A DNA stretch of 10,389 nt from Candidatus Iainarchaeum sp. (GTDB lineage: Archaea > Iainarchaeota > Iainarchaeia > Iainarchaeales > JAAZKV01), in NCBI GenBank assembly GCA_026397035.1, contig JAPLVQ010000009.1:1-10389 (forward strand), written 5' to 3'. Position numbers and translations under genes: made by a program. Of the stretch, positions 502 to 8,037 are shown in pieces. Each line of letters starts with the position of its first letter. Position 1 is the stretch's first letter. The notes beneath the pieces are model-generated. The model was given only the letters and a program-made list of their open reading frames with translations. It was not told the origin of the DNA and did not search any database.

Positions 502-1080
502 ATGGTTTCTGATAGGCGAGTTTCCGATATAAACCTACTCAACTCTTTTGTAAAAGACTTTGTCGATGTGCTTGAAACAATTCAAATTAAGTACATAATT
601 GTATCTGGCTTCGTAGCCATTTCGCATGGCCGAAGCAGGGGAACAGAGGATATTGATATAATTATTGAGAAGATTAGTGAAAAGAAATTTGAAAGTATGC
701 ACATTGAACTTATTAAGTCCGGTTTTGAGTGCCTTCAAGGCAATACAACAAAGGACCTATTTAACGATTATTTAAAAGAAAATACAAGTATTAGATATGT
801 AAAGAAAGGCAGTTTTGTTCCCGAAATGGAGCTTAAAATGGCGAAAGACGAACTTGACGAAAATCAATTAAATGAAAGAGTAAAACTTCCATTAACGGGG
901 CTCCCTTTTTGGTTTTCGAGCATTGAAACAAATATCGCATTTAAAGAAGAATTGCTCAAATCACCAAAGGACTTAGAAGATTCCAGACATTTGCGAATCA
1001 TTTACGAGAATAAACTAAATGAAGGGCAAATAAAAGAAATAAAACGACTAATCCGAAAGTATAGGTTAATAATAAAATAA
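502..1080 (+). CDS. Nucleotidyltransferase-fold protein (AbiEii/DUF6036-like)
   Basis: This 192-aa cytoplasmic protein carries a nucleotidyltransferase active-site signature at residues 35-53. The line VSGFVAISHGRSRGTEDIDI contains Ser35-Gly36, then Asp50-x-Asp52 on the following strand, the G-S...D-x-D pattern that binds the metal and nucleotide. The C-terminal part (residues 130-192) has LPFWFSSIETNIAFKEELL, then K-x-x-x-D-x-x-D-x-x-HL and a basic helical tail, as in stand-alone nucleotidyltransferases of toxin-antitoxin type. The ATG start is supported by a TATA-like box 27 bases upstream. The next gene begins 6 bases after the stop, so the two form an operon. The likely role is nucleotidyl transfer to a protein or RNA target in a defence or toxin-antitoxin module; the substrate cannot be read from the sequence. 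The fold is fairly certain, the biological role is inference. Confidence 0.75.
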   Translation: MVSDRRVSDINLLNSFVKDFVDVLETIQIKYIIVSGFVAISHGRSRGTEDIDIIIEKISEKKFESMHIELIKSGFECLQGNTTKDLFNDYLKENTSIRYVKKGSFVPEMELKMAKDELDENQLNERVKLPLTGLPFWFSSIETNIAFKEELLKSPKDLEDSRHLRIIYENKLNEGQIKEIKRLIRKYRLIIK

Positions 1081-2152: not shown

Positions 2153-3664
2153 CTATTCAACCAAGAGAACGGGTTTTACAATCTTTTCTTTTATCCCGCC
2201 CAAGAAGTCATTTCCTGAATAAACCGCTTTACTTAAAAGTTTAATAAATTCTTTTTTCTCTTTGGAATCAACTAGTGCTACACGAAGAACATCAACTAAG
2301 TTTGAAACCGGAATTATTTTTACTTTTGCAAGCTCTTCAGCTGAAACCACTATATCCCTTAAATTACTCTTTGGAACAATAATCTCCTTAAAACCCGCTT
2401 TAATTGCGGCACTAACTTTTGAAGAAACCCCTCCTACAGGAAGAACCTCTCCGCGAACACTAAGCGAACCCGTCATTGCAACACTCTGCCTGACTTCCAA
2501 ATTCTGGGTAGCGCTAATTACAGCCGTAGCTATTGAAACAGAAGCGCTATCCCCCTCAACACCCTCATAAGTCTGGAGAAACTGAATATGAATATCTTTT
2601 GAAAATCCCGTACCGAAAATCTTTTTGAAAATCACGCTAACATTCTGAACAGCTTCCTTCGCTATTTCCCCTAATTTGCCTGTAGCAATAACTTTGCTTT
2701 CGTTTTTTGAACTAGGAGGAGTAACCGCGGCTTCAATTGGAATAATACTACCCGCACTACCATCCCCGAAAACAGCAAGCCCATTAACACGACCAACTAT
2801 TTTACCTTCAGTAAGATAAACATCATAATCCTTTTTAGTCTCAATCATTTTGTCAACCATCTGGTTCTCAAGAGTTCGAGCGGAAATCTTTGCCTCAAAA
2901 ACATCCTGACGAGTAACAAGAGAATGACTCTTCTCTTTAGCAATATCCCCCGCAGCACGAACAAGCCCGCCCAAATCACGAAGCTTTAAAGTTAATTTAC
3001 CTTTATGATCAGAACGCCTTCTTGCTTCAAAAACTATTTCATTAACAGCATCCTTACCAAAATGAGGAATCTTACCATCCTTGAGTACTTCCTGCGCAAT
3101 AAACTGGGCAAGACGGGACTGATTCTCTAAATTATCATCCATGTCCACATTCATGTAAACTTCATAACCATAACCTCGAATCCTTGAACGAAGAGCAGGA
3201 TGAACTTTACGCAAATCCTCATAATTACCCGCAGCAACCAAAACAAAATCACAAGGAACAGGCTCAGTCCTTGTCATTGCACCGCTAGAATTTTCACTCT
3301 GACCAGTAATTGAATATTTTTTTTCCTGCATTGCCGTTAAAAGTTCCTGCTGGGATTTGTGAGAAAGAGTAGCAATTTCATCAATAAACAAAACGCCACC
3401 GCTCGCCTTGTGAATCATTCCCGGCTCCACTCTTAAGTGGGGGGGAGTGCCTAGGCCACCCGAGTTATGAACCAAAATATCTTCAACGAACAAATTACCT
3501 GTTTCGGTTGTCACGTTATAAACGTAACCCTTATGCTGGCGCCTTGAAATTATAGGCTTCGCTTCAACAACTGATTTGTTGGAGACAAAGTTATCCAAGT
3601 GAAGTGATTTTGAATTTTTGCTTTGAGATTTTAAATCTTTATTTTGAGAAATTGCATTAACCAT
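2153..3664 (-). CDS. lonB: Intein C-half fused to the C-terminal part of LonB protease
   Basis: This 503-aa gene is counted from ATG 3664, which has GGTG five bases upstream and a TATA box at 3709-3717; an in-frame TTG at 3685 would add 7 residues. Residues 1-67 are an intein C-half ending in block F/G ([20 protein letters not shown], then His66-Asn67), with Ser68 as the +1 residue. From Ser68 it is Lon[19 protein letters not shown], Walker B VLFIDEI (Asp95-Glu96), sensor-1 region AAGNYED (Asn147) and an arginine-rich ALRSRIRG. The Lon protease domain follows, with Ser373 in EGDSAS and Lys416 in [14 protein letters not shown], spaced 43 residues as in the known Lon dyad. Walker A and the membrane helices are missing and are encoded by the gene at 6916-8037. 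Alone it should be an inactive fragment; it most likely becomes active LonB by protein trans-splicing. The protease identity is very secure. Confidence 0.93.
3464..3664 (-). other. Split intein, C-terminal half
   Basis: Codons 1-67 of the gene carry a 'VYNVT...VEDILVHN' end that matches intein blocks F and G: an aromatic-rich strand, penultimate His66 and terminal Asn67, followed by a Ser nucleophile at 3461-3463. The roughly 30 residues just before Asn67 are the conserved part. The preceding 35-40 residues (rich in Lys, Ser and Asn) look like a linker made when the intein was broken. No endonuclease domain is present. The partner N-half is at 6919-7299. Confidence 0.9.
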
Positions 3665-3708
3665 AAACACACCAAAAACAGGCAATAACAGAAAAGCGGG
3701 AAAAAGAG

Positions 3709-3717
3709 TTTAAATAA
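3709..3717 (-). promoter_or_regulatory. TATA box of the lonB C-half gene
   Basis: On the - strand TTATTTAAA is centred near 3713. Transcription would begin near 3687, leaving a short leader of about 23 bases that contains GGTG (3673-3670) five bases before ATG 3664. The C-half therefore has its own promoter and ribosome binding site inside the 73-base gap after the 65-aa gene. Confidence 0.55.
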
Positions 3718-3737
3718 GTATCTAAGCTGGGAAAAAA

Positions 3738-3935
3738 TCACTGAAAATCAAACAAAGTAGAGGAATGAGGGTCACCAATACGACGAATGACCTTAAAATC
3801 ACTGCACAAAACCTTATCCCCTATCTTTAAATCCAAAATATTATTGTCTATCTCACACACTGAATGATTTTTTGCTATGCGAACGCGCCTGCCATTAGCA
3901 AAAATTTGGCGAACAATACCTTTATGCAAATCCAT
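3738..3935 (-). CDS. Small beta-rich, OB-fold-like protein of unknown function
   Basis: This 65-aa protein starts at an ATG that directly follows the TAG of the upstream metallopeptidase-like gene with no bases between, so translation is coupled. The sequence HKGIVRQIFANGRRVRIAK, then CEIDNNILDLKIGDKVLC, has the alternating pattern of a small beta barrel. 'G-x-V...V' strands and a 'K-x-GD-x-V' turn are common in OB-fold domains, such as the N-terminal domain of RsgA-like proteins. It carries no catalytic motif and no membrane segment. It may be a nucleic-acid or partner-binding module for the gene before it. The fold is a guess from pattern; the gene itself is well supported by context. Confidence 0.6.
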   Translation of the reverse strand: MDLHKGIVRQIFANGRRVRIAKNHSVCEIDNNILDLKIGDKVLCSDFKVIRRIGDPHSSTLFDFQ

Positions 3936-4457
3936 CTATTTACCCCACCCAATGCTTTGAAGAATCTTGTGAACAGCCTCATCCAAATATTCTTGCTTTG
4001 CTATTTTTGGCAAACCATTTAATTCCCTAAGCTGATTGTAACGCTCAAATGTCTCTGCATCGAAATCATTTGTGTGAATGCGTTTCTTTTTTCTCCGCGA
4101 ATACTCTTTTGAAAGAGTGAACAAATCCTTGCTTTCTACATGCAAAAGCTCGTGAATCATAATCGTCTGCACCACATGCTTGCGGAGCAAAGGATGACGA
4201 ATCTTTGAAAGACGCTGATTGATAAAAATATTATACACTTCAGGAGCCTGCACTAAATGCCTGACTTCGGTTGAAGTGCCGAGGAGCAAAGCTTCAGCAT
4301 CAAACATAGGGGTTTTCACTATTTTGGCACTAATATACCCAAGTTTCTTATGATTCATATCCTTATACGCCGAATGAACCGTTTCCTTATCAATGGATGA
4401 AAACACTTTTCGGCAATCAAAAAGCCAATCCATACACTCCTTATCGCACTCCTCCAC
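3936..4457 (-). CDS. Putative HExxH zinc metallopeptidase
   Basis: This 173-aa soluble protein contains a zinc-binding HELLH motif at residues 102-106 on a helix (VVQTIMIHELLHVESKDLF). Further candidate ligands are His128, Asp131 or Glu135 in KRIHTNDFDAETFER. The H-E-x-x-H plus a downstream H/D pattern fits small archaeal predicted metallopeptidases. It is too short and lacks the motifs for the large M41/M48 membrane families. The start is either GTG 4457, placed about 23 bases after a TATA-like AATAAATA and so possibly leaderless, or ATG 4433 (residue 9) with AAGGAG just before it. It abuts the 65-aa gene downstream and follows the TPR gene by 25 bases. The zinc site is clear; the substrate is unknown. 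Confidence 0.7.
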   Translation of the reverse strand: MEECDKECMDWLFDCRKVFSSIDKETVHSAYKDMNHKKLGYISAKIVKTPMFDAEALLLGTSTEVRHLVQAPEVYNIFINQRLSKIRHPLLRKHVVQTIMIHELLHVESKDLFTLSKEYSRRKKKRIHTNDFDAETFERYNQLRELNGLPKIAKQEYLDEAVHKILQSIGWGK

Positions 4458-4476
4458 AAAACACCAAAACCAATAG

Positions 4477-4484
4477 TATTTATT
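4477..4484 (-). promoter_or_regulatory. Possible internal TATA box for the metallopeptidase gene
   Basis: On the - strand AATAAATA lies 20-27 bases before the GTG at 4457 and overlaps the stop codon of the TPR gene. The spacing fits an archaeal TATA box for a leaderless message. The gene may also be read through from the TPR gene. Confidence 0.3.
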
Positions 4485-5343
4485 ACTTTAAACAATTTTC
4501 AATCCACTCCTTCACTTTTGGCATATGCCAAACACTTGCAGAGCCTTGCTGTTCCCAAAAATAATAAGCCTCATCTGCCCCTCCAACCGTAACATACTCT
4601 TCCGAAATATTTCTCGGTTTTTTGTGGGTTTCCTTTAATAATTCTTCCGCACAAATCGGGTGATACTTAATTGCTTCCTTTAGCGCAATATTAGCATCAT
4701 CTTTTTTTCCAAGCATGAAAAATGCTAATGCTGAACCAAACATTACTGACGGATCAGCATCATCAATAAAAAGTCCTTTAAGTTCAAGCATTTTCCCCCA
4801 TTCATGCCACTTAACATAAATATCCGCCAAAACAGACCTTGCACCTTGATTATCATTCGGATTCCAAGATAAAATCTGGTTAAAACACTTAACCGCATTA
4901 TCAATATCAAGCTTAGCAAGGTAATCCAAGCCTAAAGAATAATAAGTATTCAAGAAAAGACGGTTATCCAAAAACCCCCATTCTAACTTATCGTGCTCAA
5001 AATCAAACTTTTTTGGGAAAAAACTCAAAGCCAAATCAACTGCTTTATGGAGAAGCTCGCCATACTTTGAAGTTCCCCTATAAGTGAAAGCTAAATCGTG
5101 AAGAATGTCAAACCGCCAAGGAGAAATGCTTAAAGCCCTTTCAAAACACGCCCTTGCCTCCTCAATATTCCCTTTTTCTGACTCCTCAACACCAGCATCA
5201 AAATACTTGCTCGCCCCAGCATCTTCAGGCCAGATAAAAACCCAGCCATTTTTGCCAACCCTTTCCATCCTCGGTCCAGCTTTAACCATAATAAACCACT
5301 TCTTCAAAGAATCCTCAATAATTTTCTTCTCACCATCAGTCAA
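4483..5343 (-). CDS. Tetratricopeptide-repeat (TPR) protein
   Basis: This is a 286-aa soluble helical-repeat protein. TPR units are visible at about 44-77 (YFDAGVEESEKGNIEEARAC, then F-x-x-AL-x-x-x-P), 129-162 (YYSLGLDYLAKLDIDNAVKC, then F-x-x-IL-x-x-NP) and 196-230 (a GSALAFFMLGK segment, then A-x-x-A-L...P). The C-terminal part has the 'AIKYHP...ELL...P', then 'GGADEAYYFW...W' ending seen in a group of bacterial and archaeal TPR proteins of unknown function. Such proteins act as protein-protein scaffolds. The TTG start at 5343 overlaps the TGA of a 38-aa ORF by four bases (TTGA), which supports it; an in-frame TAA lies 12 bases upstream. It is followed by the HExxH gene. The partner is unknown. 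Confidence 0.75.
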   Translation of the reverse strand: MTDGEKKIIEDSLKKWFIMVKAGPRMERVGKNGWVFIWPEDAGASKYFDAGVEESEKGNIEEARACFERALSISPWRFDILHDLAFTYRGTSKYGELLHKAVDLALSFFPKKFDFEHDKLEWGFLDNRLFLNTYYSLGLDYLAKLDIDNAVKCFNQILSWNPNDNQGARSVLADIYVKWHEWGKMLELKGLFIDDADPSVMFGSALAFFMLGKKDDANIALKEAIKYHPICAEELLKETHKKPRNISEEYVTVGGADEAYYFWEQQGSASVWHMPKVKEWIENCLK

Positions 5344-5456
5344 GGAATTGCCTTAAATTTTTCAACAAGCTGCACGACTTTCTGCCTTGCTTCTTCTTTG
5401 GAATACCTAATTACAATAAATAAAGCAGTGTTTTTAACTATTGGCTTGGCACGCAT
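5340..5456 (-). CDS. Short 38-aa ORF linking the endonuclease and TPR genes
   Basis: This ORF begins at ATG 5456 inside the last codons of the endonuclease gene (19-base overlap). It ends in TGA overlapping the TTG start of the TPR gene by four bases. It encodes a basic peptide whose second half reads YSKEEARQKVVQLVEKFKAI plus a final Pro, a clean amphipathic helix. That helix resembles N-termini of restriction-type enzymes ('S-K-E-E-A-x-x-K-V-x-x-L-V-E-K-F'). It may be a real small protein, a leader peptide for coupled translation of the TPR gene, or an N-terminal piece separated from a longer protein by a frameshift. There is no strong ribosome binding site. The ORF is real as sequence; its status as a gene is uncertain. 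Confidence 0.4.
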   Translation of the reverse strand: MRAKPIVKNTALFIVIRYSKEEARQKVVQLVEKFKAIP

Positions 5457-6304
5457 TCTTTGTCTTCTTTAACCAATTGAACTTGCCCTCCCAACCGTTC
5501 TTTTTTGCCCTGCACAATTACCTCTTGTGTTCGCTTCTTTTTTCCTTGCGCATAATGTAATTCAAATTTTTCATCAAAGAAAAGCACCCTATGAAAAATT
5601 GTTCTTATGAAAATTCTGTAGCTGGTTGTTTGAGCACCATCCTTACGAAGGCGCCCTGCAGAAAGGTTTTTGTGAATATTACCAGTAGTTGCTATCCCGA
5701 CTGAATGGAGAAGTTCCTCAACACACCTTAGAAAATCGATGTGTTCATTCTCAAGCGACAATACTTTAGAAATGCCAATAGAAAAACCAGTGAAGCGATA
5801 ATTGCCTAAAGAATCCGGCCGCCAGCGAGGAACAGAAACCTCAGAAGCTAAGTAACCATCCAAGAAATTCATTCTTGACTCTCCAGTGGCAGAAAAAATC
5901 CATTTTGGCAAATTATATACAATTGTCACTTTGTCACCAACGGGCGCACCAAGCGCTGCAAAAAAACGAATAACGGCTCTATCATAGCAACGAATATTGT
6001 AAGAATGTCCATATTCACCGCCCTCAACAATTTGTGTTTTTCCTTGAGCAAAAGGAAAAATTTTTAGTAAATCGGAATGCCACAAATCAATATCTCTTTT
6101 ATCTGCTGAAATAAAGGCAACTGTATTGAATCGGCAGTCAATTCCACCATCCCCAAAAAGAGTGCCAAGAATGTTGAAAATTATTTCGGCATCTTTATGA
6201 TTTTCAGTAAAAGGAAGCAACCCGGCTTGTTTTAATTTTTGAACAACTTTTAATGGATTAGGAATTGCCTTCTTTTCTCCTTTTGTATGCCACCACCTTG
6301 TGCT

Positions 6305-6307
6305 TCA
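6305..6307 (-). other. In-frame TGA inside the HTH of the homing endonuclease
   Basis: The TGA falls between KILGVKQ and STRWW in a continuous helix-turn-helix, with protein-like sequence of the same frame on both sides and no other stop. It could derive from TGG, GGA or CGA by a single change. TGA also ends RNase Z, the 232-aa gene and others here, so it is not generally reassigned. Confidence 0.75.
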
Positions 6308-6521
6308 TTGTTTTACACCAAGAATCTTGGTGCATTTTTTGTATCCTAAAAAAGTGTTTCCTTCAATCAATTTTAGATATTCAAAATATTTCTGACAAGA
6401 AAACTGATCCTTTTTTGAATAAGTATTGATAATATCTTGTTCAAAAACAAGAATTTTTGTTTCCATTACTGAAACCTTTTCCTGTGATTTATAACCGCTT
6501 TGGAAGTAATTTGCCGGCGTG

Positions 6522-6539
6522 GCAAAACTGTTGTTTTGC
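6522..6539. repeat. Palindrome 1 (GCAAAAC-4-GTTTTGC)
   Basis: Perfect seven-base inverted repeat arms surround a four-base loop. Palindrome 2, eight bases away, has the same arm ends. Both lie in the 5' part of the endonuclease ORF, between its overlapping ATG (6586) and the internal ATG (6466). Confidence 0.7.
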
Positions 6540-6546
6540 ACTGCCC

Positions 6547-6567
6547 GCAAAACCTCTGAGGTTTTGC
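6547..6567. repeat. Palindrome 2 (GCAAAACCTC-1-GAGGTTTTGC)
   Basis: Perfect ten-base inverted repeat arms surround one central base. The outer seven bases are the same as in palindrome 1. It may be an operator, an RNA hairpin between the coupled genes, or a recombination site. Confidence 0.75.
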
Positions 6568-6578
6568 TTGGTGATGAA

Positions 6579-6725
6579 TCAGTCATCTTCATCACCTTCA
6601 GAAAAGTTTTCAAGAACCCAAAGTTCTCTTGAATCCAAATCTTCAGGATTATTTTCTAAAATCCACTTAATTTCAGCAATTTCTTCAACGGTTGGCTTTG
6701 CCAAATTTTCAATAGAAAAAACCAT
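6579..6725 (-). CDS. Small acidic 48-aa protein upstream of the endonuclease
   Basis: ATG 6725 has a near-perfect ribosome binding site, GGAGGTGGTC, three bases upstream, which decides this start. The frame is open further to an ATG at 6785 (68 aa) without a visible ribosome binding site. The protein is acidic, ending LENFSEGDEDD, with PTVEEIAEIKWILENNPEDL in the middle, and is probably helical. Its stop overlaps the start of the endonuclease ORF by eight bases (ATGACTGA), so the two are translationally coupled. The family is not recognised. Part of its start region exists as a degraded inverted copy at 6815-6926. It could be an endonuclease accessory protein or simply a host gene fragment carried with it. 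Confidence 0.55.
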   Translation of the reverse strand: MVFSIENLAKPTVEEIAEIKWILENNPEDLDSRELWVLENFSEGDEDD

Positions 6726-6728
6726 TTT

Positions 6729-6872
6729 GACCACCTCCGCAAAAACGAATTTTTTCGTGGACGGCTCTGCTGCTTTTGGAGGCATTAAAGTCTTTGTCCT
6801 GAGCTAAGCAAAGGCAAAGATTTAAGCCGAGAAAAGCAGAGTCCAAAGAAAAAATTCGCCAAGGAGGTGGTC
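6729..6872. repeat. Long imperfect inverted repeat after the lonB N-half gene
   Basis: Arms of about 68 bases (6729-6796) and 58 bases (6815-6872) enclose an 18-base loop. Matching blocks in order are GACCACCTCC (6729-6738) with GGAGGTGGTC (6863-6872), CGAATTTTTTC (6746-6756) with 6848-6858, TGGAC (6758-6762) with 6841-6845, TCTGCT (6766-6771) with 6835-6840, and GGCATTAAAGTCTTTG (6781-6796) with 6815-6828. Weaker similarity continues outward on both sides. One arm contains the ribosome binding site of the 48-aa ORF. It may be an inverted duplication, a long mRNA hairpin, or both. Confidence 0.75.
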
Positions 6873-6877
6873 CTTGG
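6859..6877 (-). promoter_or_regulatory. Local hairpin overlapping the long inverted repeat
   Basis: CCAAGGA and TCCTTGG form a perfect seven-base stem with a five-base loop. On the - strand it is followed within five bases by T6 (GAATTTTTTC). It could act as a terminator after the N-half gene. It uses the same bases that could pair with the ribosome binding site of the 48-aa ORF. Confidence 0.45.
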
Positions 6878-6887
6878 TTTTGAGAAT

Positions 6888-6893
6888 AAAAAA
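6888..6893 (-). terminator. T-tract terminator after the lonB N-half gene
   Basis: A T6 run (GCTTTTTTATT on the - strand) lies 23-28 bases after the TAA of the N-half gene. Archaeal termination commonly uses such U-tracts without a strong hairpin. Confidence 0.35.
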
Positions 6894-6915
6894 GCAAAGC
6901 CCTTGGAAGACGAAA

Positions 6916-8037
6916 TTAAGCAGTGACTTTGATTGAAGAAAGCTTGAACAAAGAATCTTTTTTAGAAATTTTATCTGCGCGTTTATCCCCTGCTTTTGTA
7001 ATTACTTTGTGCTCAGGAGTGGTTGTAACTTTTTCATTTTGCAAAGAAATCTCAATAACCTCTCCATCATGCGGTTTTCTGTTTAATGAATAAATTCTTG
7101 TTCTTACGACCTTTCCATCTTTCATACCCAAAGTATAAACTTCATCATCTTTGGGCAGAACAATTGCTTCATACCCTTTTTCATGCTTTTCAACTAAGTC
7201 AGGATATTTTTTTGCGGTTTGATTCCAAAGTTTTTCAAAAGAAATCTTTTTCTCGAAACGACCGCGAATAATTATTAACTTGTTCACGTTAACAAGGCAT
7301 TGCAACGGATCGTGCCTTACATCACCAAGTAGCGCCCCGGCTCTAGCACCCGTAGCTTCAAAAAAAGGAGCAATCTTTTTTTCAGCATTATTAACTAAAA
7401 GTTTTGGAGAAAGTACAGTCTCTCTTGAACGCATCTGACCAGAAACCGTAACCGCAACTAAAAACACCGCGCCAATCAAAAGCAAAGCCGCAAAAATGAC
7501 ATCACTAAACCACTTCAATTGCCAAAGCACGCTTGCTATAAGCATTAAACCAAAAGGGAGAATAAAAGAAACCAAACGAGAAGAATCCTCTACCTGCTTT
7601 GCCTCAAGATGAGCTGAATTTAAAACCTTTTTTCCTTCACCCGATTTTAGCACTCTAACTTTTGGATTATTTGGATCCTCTGAATTAGGGCAAATCAAAA
7701 TATCCTGCAAAACTCCTACAGGCAAAACCTCGCTCATGGCCTGCGCTAGAAGAGACTTACCAGTACCAGGCAAGCCTACAAGAAGAACATTTCTTTTCTG
7801 CGCAGCAGCTTTACGAACAATCTCTACACAATTATCCTGACCAATAACCTGCTCCAAAAGCTGTTTAGGGACAGAAACCTCCTCCGTGCTTGTAAGATTT
7901 TCAAAATCAACTTTATGCGAAATAACTTTTGAGGAGGAAGACTTAGAAAGTGAAGATTTTAGAGATGGGACCATAGAACCAGCACGCGAAACGGGAACCT
8001 TAACACTCTTAGAACGAGACTTCTTTTTTGAAGGCAT
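6916..8037 (-). CDS. lonB: N-terminal part of LonB protease fused to an intein N-half
   Basis: This 373-aa gene has residues 1-246 as LonB: a Ser/Lys-rich N-terminal tail (1-40), LEQVIGQDNCVEIVRKAA, Walker A GLPGTGKS (88-95), two transmembrane helices (about 155-174 and 180-198), then GARAGALLGDVRHDPLQ. Cys247 follows, and residues 247-373 are an intein N-half: block A CLVNVNKL, block B GEVIEISLQNEKVTTTPEH with Thr340-x-x-His343, then an A-x-K-I-x-K-x-D strand and a stop. Archaeal LonB has its membrane helices between Walker A and Walker B, exactly as here. Walker B, sensors and protease are absent and found at 2153-3664. The joined exteins (246 + 436 residues) give a normal 682-aa LonB. ATG 8037 lies about 25 bases after a T/A-rich box and has no clear ribosome binding site, so it is possibly leaderless. 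The fragment can bind the membrane but cannot hydrolyse ATP alone. Confidence 0.93.
   Translation of the reverse strand: MPSKKKSRSKSVKVPVSRAGSMVPSLKSSLSKSSSSKVISHKVDFENLTSTEEVSVPKQLLEQVIGQDNCVEIVRKAAAQKRNVLLVGLPGTGKSLLAQAMSEVLPVGVLQDILICPNSEDPNNPKVRVLKSGEGKKVLNSAHLEAKQVEDSSRLVSFILPFGLMLIASVLWQLKWFSDVIFAALLLIGAVFLVAVTVSGQMRSRETVLSPKLLVNNAEKKIAPFFEATGARAGALLGDVRHDPLQCLVNVNKLIIIRGRFEKKISFEKLWNQTAKKYPDLVEKHEKGYEAIVLPKDDEVYTLGMKDGKVVRTRIYSLNRKPHDGEVIEISLQNEKVTTTPEHKVITKAGDKRADKISKKDSLFKLSSIKVTA
6919..7299 (-). other. Split intein, N-terminal half
   Basis: This is 127 codons from Cys247 (codon 7299-7297) to the stop. Cys is the first splicing nucleophile. The TTTPEH motif is intein block B, whose Thr and His activate the N-terminal splice junction. 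The tail after block B ends near where an endonuclease domain is normally inserted. With the 67-aa C-half the total is 194 residues, typical of a mini-intein. Confidence 0.9.

Follow-up and report, generated by a model that had tools for sequence, protein, structure and literature searches.

A lonB gene divided between two intein halves in archaea, and the probable joining of its products by protein trans-splicing

Results

The stretch of DNA studied here (the window) is the entire 10,389-base contig C8 (JAPLVQ010000009.1) of a Candidatus Iainarchaeum genome (G000, assembly GCA_026397035.1), which comprises 188 contigs and is 77% complete. It holds the gene of the archaeal protease LonB as two genes, each of which fuses a part of LonB to one half of an intein, with the catalytic residues kept (Table 1). 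In the upstream gene, residues 1-246 of LonB close with GDVRHDPLQ and run without a break into Cys247, the first residue of the intein N-half (IntN). In the downstream gene, His66-Asn67 closes the intein C-half (IntC) and is followed by SGGLGTPPH of LonB, whose Ser is the +1 residue. A sequence-only reading of this DNA had described the two genes in this way, and its coordinates, strand, N-then-C order and residue counts (246 + 436 = 682) are right; the gap of about 3.25 kb that it gave measures 3,251 bases from the stop of the N-half gene to the ATG of the C-half gene.

Profile searches agree with this anatomy. TIGR00764 (LonB) matches the C-half gene with 620.8 bits (E 2.7e-186), above the cut-off of 516.6, and matches the N-half gene as a fragment (189.8 bits, E 8.1e-56). 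TIGR01445 (intein N-terminus) scores above its cut-off on the N-half gene (E 9.2e-7) and reaches E 1.2e-7 on the IntN piece alone. On the intact LonB of G004, from the same genus, residues 8-228 are covered by the N-half and residues 229-643 by the C-half. Because the exteins abut exactly, nothing is missing or doubled at the join, and the proposal that joining them gives an uninterrupted LonB holds. The marks of an archaeal LonB are spread across both exteins: Walker A and B, the protease Ser motif and, for the C-half, a TIGR00764 score above the cut-off. Neither part by itself can be LonB: the N-part holds Walker A and the hydrophobic stretch, the C-part Walker B and the protease site. Parts of one protein are thus borne by complementary intein halves in separate genes, with the nucleophile Cys1 and the block-B T..H (TPEH) on one side and the C-terminal Asn67 and the nucleophile Ser+1 on the other, as in a split intein. 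By sequence, the closest solved structure to the C-part is the Lon protease 3k1j (E 1.5e-165), and the top solved match of the IntN profile is 2jmz, by its title the KlbA intein precursor (E 7.1e-8). Inteins make up all nine of the best fold matches of the IntN model (probability 1.00, best E 2.1e-3). A search for a second intact lonB in the 77% complete window genome gave one other TIGR00764 match, a weak one of 47 bits on contig C98, and we rejected it as such a copy.

Table 1. Features of the divided lonB locus, in positions of the window.
Feature	Position	Strand	Remarks
LonB N-part + intein N-half gene	6916..8037	-	373 residues; sequence, TIGR00764, TIGR01445
LonB N-extein, residues 1-246	7300..8037	-	Walker A GLPGTGKS; hydrophobic (membrane) stretch, the latter by eye
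Intein N-half (IntN), 127 residues	6919..7299	-	Cys1, block B TPEH; TIGR01445, alignments, fold model
Intein C-half + LonB C-part gene	2153..3664	-	503 residues; possible TTG start at 3685
Intein C-half (IntC), 67 residues	3464..3664	-	ends VHN
LonB C-extein, 436 residues	2156..3463	-	Ser+1, Walker B; protease domain containing GDSAS and, by eye, the catalytic Lys
TATA-like box upstream of the C-half gene	3709..3716	-	similar boxes before relatives' C-halves
Small open reading frame between IntN and endonuclease	6579-6785	-	conserved: 90% identity in G003, 46% in G052
LAGLIDADG homing endonuclease gene	5438-6586	-	in-frame stop 6305-6307; uninterrupted in relatives
Accessory gene, TPR protein	4483..5343	-	found in 1/5 genomes of the genus
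Accessory gene, HELLH motif	3936..4457	-	family search without match
Small accessory open reading frame	3738..3935	-

A first scan of genome contigs with the window N-half gave 40 stretches, with no relative among them. Of five genomes in the genus, G000 and G003 carry the split, G001 and G004 have an intact lonB, and that of G002 is broken by contig ends. Of 87 Diapherotrites genomes, 16 have lonB divided at this residue (G000, G003, G010, G015, G029, G031, G032, G042, G043, G047, G048, G049, G052, G073, G085 and G086); G042, G047 and G048 show one half only, and the halves of G003 and G073 lie on two contigs. This set excludes G038, where the IntN match stops at a contig end and fits a split or an unsplit gene. 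A different intein, in one frame, occupies the same residue in G021, G045 and G046 (G046 begins at a contig end). The remaining Diapherotrites genomes mostly have one frame across the site, several being without a usable lonB match among the matches listed. Sampling of 371 genomes from a second archaeal phylum gave 24 with a strong IntN-profile match (E below 1e-21), and all except the unsplit G498 (23 genomes) are split. Fifteen of them are half-split, that is, cut after the endonuclease, so that one gene encodes LonB-N, IntN and endonuclease and the other IntC and LonB-C. The endonuclease is a separate gene in G391, G392, G405 and G428 (decayed in G428), and none was detected in the fetched lonB stretches of G273, G404, G420 and G553. 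At this site, G498 and, outside both phyla, G093, G113 and G208 have a LonB intein that is unsplit and contains a homologous endonuclease; the split lies where these inteins carry that endonuclease. Both halves share contig and strand in 34 of the 39 split genomes; in the second phylum, G385 has them on two contigs. LonB was found solely as halves in 20 of 21 second-phylum split genomes (E 1e-25), 19 of the 21 genomes being at least 90% complete. A recent birth in the window lineage alone is rejected by this occurrence, and a viral carrier was likewise rejected, as viral contigs gave no IntN relative. In G015 (L046) and G073 (L047/L048), LonB is split again at G004 residue 299 (...[12 protein letters not shown]), giving three pieces, and G015 has an additional insert within the P-loop piece. 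The C-half open reading frame (ORF) of G010 (L045; 993 residues) holds a further unsplit intein 13 residues past the split site.

Residue counts run over 36 or 38 of the 39 split genomes: the fetched stretches of G047, G048 and G553 are without a C-half and that of G042 is without an N-half. The C-half of G553 was located later and is absent from counts and trees, and the C-parts of G010, G015 and G073 are patched, the piece holding the first site being used. The intein-terminal Asn and Ser+1 are each present in all 36 C-halves, and the block-B T..H in all 38 N-halves (36 by pattern and two, TPKH and TQEH, by eye). Residue 1 of the intein is Ser in 18 N-halves, Cys in 12 and Thr in eight (L108, L111, L112, L114, L115, L120, L128 and L129); Thr is unusual as a first intein residue. 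GDSAS is found in 35 of 36 C-halves, the exception being G405, whose stretch ends inside the C-part. Walker A is present in 34 of 38 N-halves and missing from the matched piece in G032, at a contig end, and in G391, G516 and G015, which we put down to a further P-loop insert or a partial match. Five of the 20 split inteins checked are cysteine-free in the compared stretches. The Nanoarchaeum equitans PolB intein has been named as a cysteine-less split intein (PMC8861304).

Selection was compared in G029 and G031, the least saturated pair (synonymous divergence, dS, 0.36-0.59). Their ratios of nonsynonymous to synonymous divergence (dN/dS, NG86) are 0.147 for IntN, 0.102 for IntC and 0.064 and 0.083 for the LonB parts, so that the halves are under purifying selection, even with a frameshift in the G029 endonuclease. 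In the window as in G029, the endonuclease is broken and the intein halves are intact; in G010, G015, G032, G049 and G086, no endonuclease was found between the halves, and the splicing halves are whole. Such a pattern is to be expected if splicing, but not homing, is what the host requires.

The C-half starts at its ATG or perhaps, in view of the TATA-like box upstream, at the TTG before it. A TATA-like motif, [AT]TTT?AA, precedes the C-half start in 12 of 14 Diapherotrites genomes (shuffled sequences average 3.8, and 0/500 reach 12), at 27-32 bases in ten of them, 36-37 in G015 and 50-51 in the window. The Diapherotrites C-half thus appears usually to have its own TATA-like box. The test was made first on 12 of the 15 half-split genomes and then repeated on all 36 C-halves; in the second phylum, the motif is not clearly above chance (six against 3.2 in the 15 half-split genomes, five against 2.7 in the other seven C-halves). 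Among the half-split genomes, stop and start overlap as ATGA in nine, four have a gap of 224-325 bases, and in G390 and G495 one stop separates two ORFs of the same frame. G086 also has ATGA. These overlaps, as in translationally coupled genes, were seen at L110, L111, L113, L114, L115, L116, L120, L127, L129 and L042.

Downstream of the N-half come, in order, a small ORF for which family searches gave no match, the endonuclease gene, the TPR gene and two further ORFs. The earlier reading had passed over the small ORF and the endonuclease gene, as well as the presence of the split in other genomes. As in fractured genes, an endonuclease gene stands between the halves, interrupted in the window copy; an active LAGLIDADG homing system would have it intact, as relatives do. 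Homologues lie between the lonB halves or after the N-half in G003, G029 (frameshifted), G031, G043, G052, G085 and G048, with uninterrupted ORFs in G031, G043, G052 and G003 (in G003 after the N-half, the C-half being on another contig). Searches of Pfam and of PDB sequences with the endonuclease gave no real match and no match, respectively. The best of five models of the G003 enzyme (predicted local distance difference test score, pLDDT, 82.6; the other four 46-53) resembles LAGLIDADG enzymes, namely I-Tsp061I (E 1.4e-7), PI-SceI and I-DmoI, and its predicted fold is not that of a Vsr-like endonuclease.

The three accessory genes had no counterpart in the lonB stretches of ten other genomes compared and, since the TPR gene is also confined to one genome of the genus, they are probably later arrivals. 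The HELLH motif of one product suggests a zinc metalloprotease. The intein-free G001 has the order rnz, lonB, a DUF373-like gene and a stomatin-like gene, the last two being names that we presume from the sequence. The C-half of G003 retains the old downstream neighbor, which in the window genome sits on contig C6 beside a different gene; the window C-half has lost it. Elsewhere, the gap holds a lactate/malate dehydrogenase (G032), AAA_14/DUF4143 ATPases (G029, G049) or a phospholipase-like gene (G015). AAA_14/DUF4143 ATPase genes stand between or beside the halves in three genomes (L036, L055 and L028 4336-5574). The gap of G553, about 5.4 kb long, has at least four ORFs and contains three unrelated genes on the opposite strand. 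In G003 (L029 1-2653), the gene directly upstream of the LonB C-half encodes a reverse transcriptase (RVT_1). A similar C-terminal stretch is present in a nearby ORF and, in Asn-rich form, at the start of this frame, so that the region looks like a diversity-generating retroelement. Away from lonB, the product of window positions 502-1080 had no Pfam match and resembles, by eye, a nucleotidyltransferase-type protein.

The intein tree is unrooted, with 174 columns and few unsplit rows; G038 and G606 (a 53-residue fragment) were left out of all the trees, G385 is in the endonuclease tree only, and G021, G045 and G046 are outside the intein tree. All 35 split rows fall on one side of the branch from the four unsplit rows (support 100/97), 12 Diapherotrites rows group together (100/93), and the window and G003 are neighbors (93/92). 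From this short tree, a single splitting event is likely. The G085 intein places with the second phylum, a grouping with Diapherotrites not being rejected (approximately unbiased, AU, test, p 0.097). A LonB tree, made by a quick method, joins G049 with G052 (100) and G043 with G029/G031/G032 (95), two groupings rejected by the intein data (AU p 0.014 and 6.7e-6, respectively). Because the two trees conflict, the split intein has probably moved between lineages. G029 and G031 share 66% identity in the endonuclease (152-residue piece), 85% in IntN and 92-94% in LonB, and the G029 endonuclease groups with that of G043 (92/82; row 47% filled); by these comparisons, the endonuclease was exchanged separately from the split intein. 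The free G003 endonuclease matches that of the unsplit G113 intein with a BLASTP E of 9e-34. Although located at the same residue, the unsplit inteins of G021, G045 and G046 were rejected as a direct source, because their block B is TPNH and not TPEH and an endonuclease of the window family was not found in them.

Discussion

In this study, we have explored a divided lonB locus in one archaeal genome and its counterparts in others. Based on our results, we consider it highly probable that lonB is here a natural split-intein ("fractured") gene, the LonB of which would be joined by protein trans-splicing. By established intein chemistry, IntN and IntC of the two precursors would dock, the bond after LonB Gln246 would be activated at Cys1, Ser+1 of the C-part would attack and Asn67 would cyclize. 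A seamless LonB of 682 residues would then be released to act as a membrane-anchored, ATP-dependent protease.

Several observations weigh against this explanation. The penultimate IntC residue is His in only 11 of 36 C-halves. IntN is the least constrained part, held by selection less tightly than the host LonB: its dN/dS is 0.60 in G391/G428, and in G000/G003, where dS is higher than in G029/G031, it is 0.33, above LonB (0.17 and 0.08) and IntC (0.08). Modelled alone, IntN gave a fold of modest confidence (pLDDT 70.9), with zero fold matches below E 0.001. An intact lonB could be missing from the 77% complete assembly of the window genome, and divergent LonB-like frames stand beside the halves in G404 (936 residues, G404:C3:157831-160185, below the family cut-off) and in G086 (L043, 483 residues, without a split). 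As for the putative promoter, the motif was picked after viewing the sequences, the 14 genomes include several close relatives, and the window box is 50 bases from the ATG and not about 30.

One alternative is that the halves work as two non-covalent subunits, the intein pieces docking the LonB parts or being relics, without splicing. The odd residues in relatives would suit it, with Thr1 in 8/38 and Lys, Ser, Cys or Thr before the Asn in 25/36. However, the residues kept without exception, namely Asn, Ser+1 and the block-B T..H, serve chemistry and not docking; moreover, the break falls between Walker A and Walker B, where an unspliced intein would occupy the AAA+ core. We therefore regard this arrangement as improbable. 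Somewhat less probable again is rejoining at the level of RNA or the ribosome (trans-splicing RNA, frameshifting or stop read-through), with the intein acting in cis. The single stop between in-frame ORFs in G390 and G495 and the ATGA overlaps in nine half-split genomes and G086 could be read in this way, but such overlaps are the usual mark of separate, coupled translation. The C-half also opens with a separate start codon, most Diapherotrites C-halves have a TATA-like box to themselves, and read-through is impossible across 3.25 kb and other genes in the window or across the gap of G553. That the locus is a decaying pseudogene or an assembly join of two copies is barely credible: a metagenome assembly in 188 contigs, the interrupted endonuclease, the relatives' downstream lonB neighbor on another contig and the two-contig halves of G003 and G073 would allow it, yet a split at the same residue in 16/87 and 23/371 genomes, mostly on one contig and strand, is no assembly accident, and intact ORFs under purifying selection, with catalytic residues kept and LonB found almost solely as halves in the second phylum, are not decayed paralogues. 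Both of these last possibilities had been named beforehand as what could overturn the trans-splicing explanation, and both failed.

Returning to trans-splicing, the relatives suggest how such a gene could arise. An ordinary unsplit, endonuclease-bearing lon intein would have been cut at the borders of the endonuclease domain, leaving in some lineages a LonB-N-IntN-endonuclease gene and an IntC-LonB-C gene, and in others IntN, free endonuclease and IntC in three genes. In view of the ATGA overlaps and the single-stop cases, a stop or frameshift at the endonuclease border together with a new start codon would be the simplest first step. Later, in places, the endonuclease may have decayed or been lost, unrelated genes may have entered the gap and the C-half may have gained its own promoter. 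A broader picture, which we offer tentatively and rate somewhat below an even chance, is that of a fractured lonB family, present in two or more archaeal phyla, whose split intein and free endonuclease would still be spreading between lineages as a set of separate genes, the gap collecting unrelated genes and the C-half having its own promoter. LonB activity could then be gated by the amount of each half, and in G015 and G073 LonB would be assembled from three polypeptides through two split inteins. The separate promoter might, at a guess, make the LonB level adjustable.

Split inteins of several kinds offer points of comparison. Fractured genes with split inteins were reportedly described from metagenomes by Dassa et al. 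in 2009, mostly in phage-type replication and nucleotide genes and with a Vsr-like endonuclease. They reportedly share with lonB a host gene broken inside the intein, an endonuclease gene between the halves and expected trans-splicing; unlike them, lonB is a cellular archaeal protease gene, and its LAGLIDADG endonuclease is shared with unsplit inteins at the same site. The PolB split intein of Nanoarchaeum equitans is likewise archaeal, from a DPANN genome, and split, but its host is a DNA polymerase; to our knowledge, it is a single case, and we know of no graded series leading to an unsplit ancestor. The cyanobacterial DnaE split inteins also divide an essential host protein between two genes, have no endonuclease domain and are vertically kept. 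They are bacterial and in another host, whereas endonuclease genes persist in many of the lonB genomes and the intein tree conflicts with the host tree. Unsplit archaeal lon inteins (G113, L092) have the same insertion residue, the homologous endonuclease noted above and a similar sequence (Int[10 protein letters not shown]), in contrast as one continuous reading frame. In the open-access literature searched, no title or abstract reports a split LonB, which fits the remark of the earlier reading that it knew of no naturally split LonB with genes between its halves.

In conclusion, natural split inteins are few and, as far as we know, their birth is rarely readable. Forms that are unsplit, half-split, fully split, without an endonuclease or dispersed occur side by side at one residue of lonB, which makes it possible to order and test the steps by which a selfish intein becomes an obligatory two-gene protein. 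Some 35 natural split-intein pairs, with both halves in hand, are candidates for protein ligation. Since LonB is a cellular quality-control protease, its splicing could be a control point.

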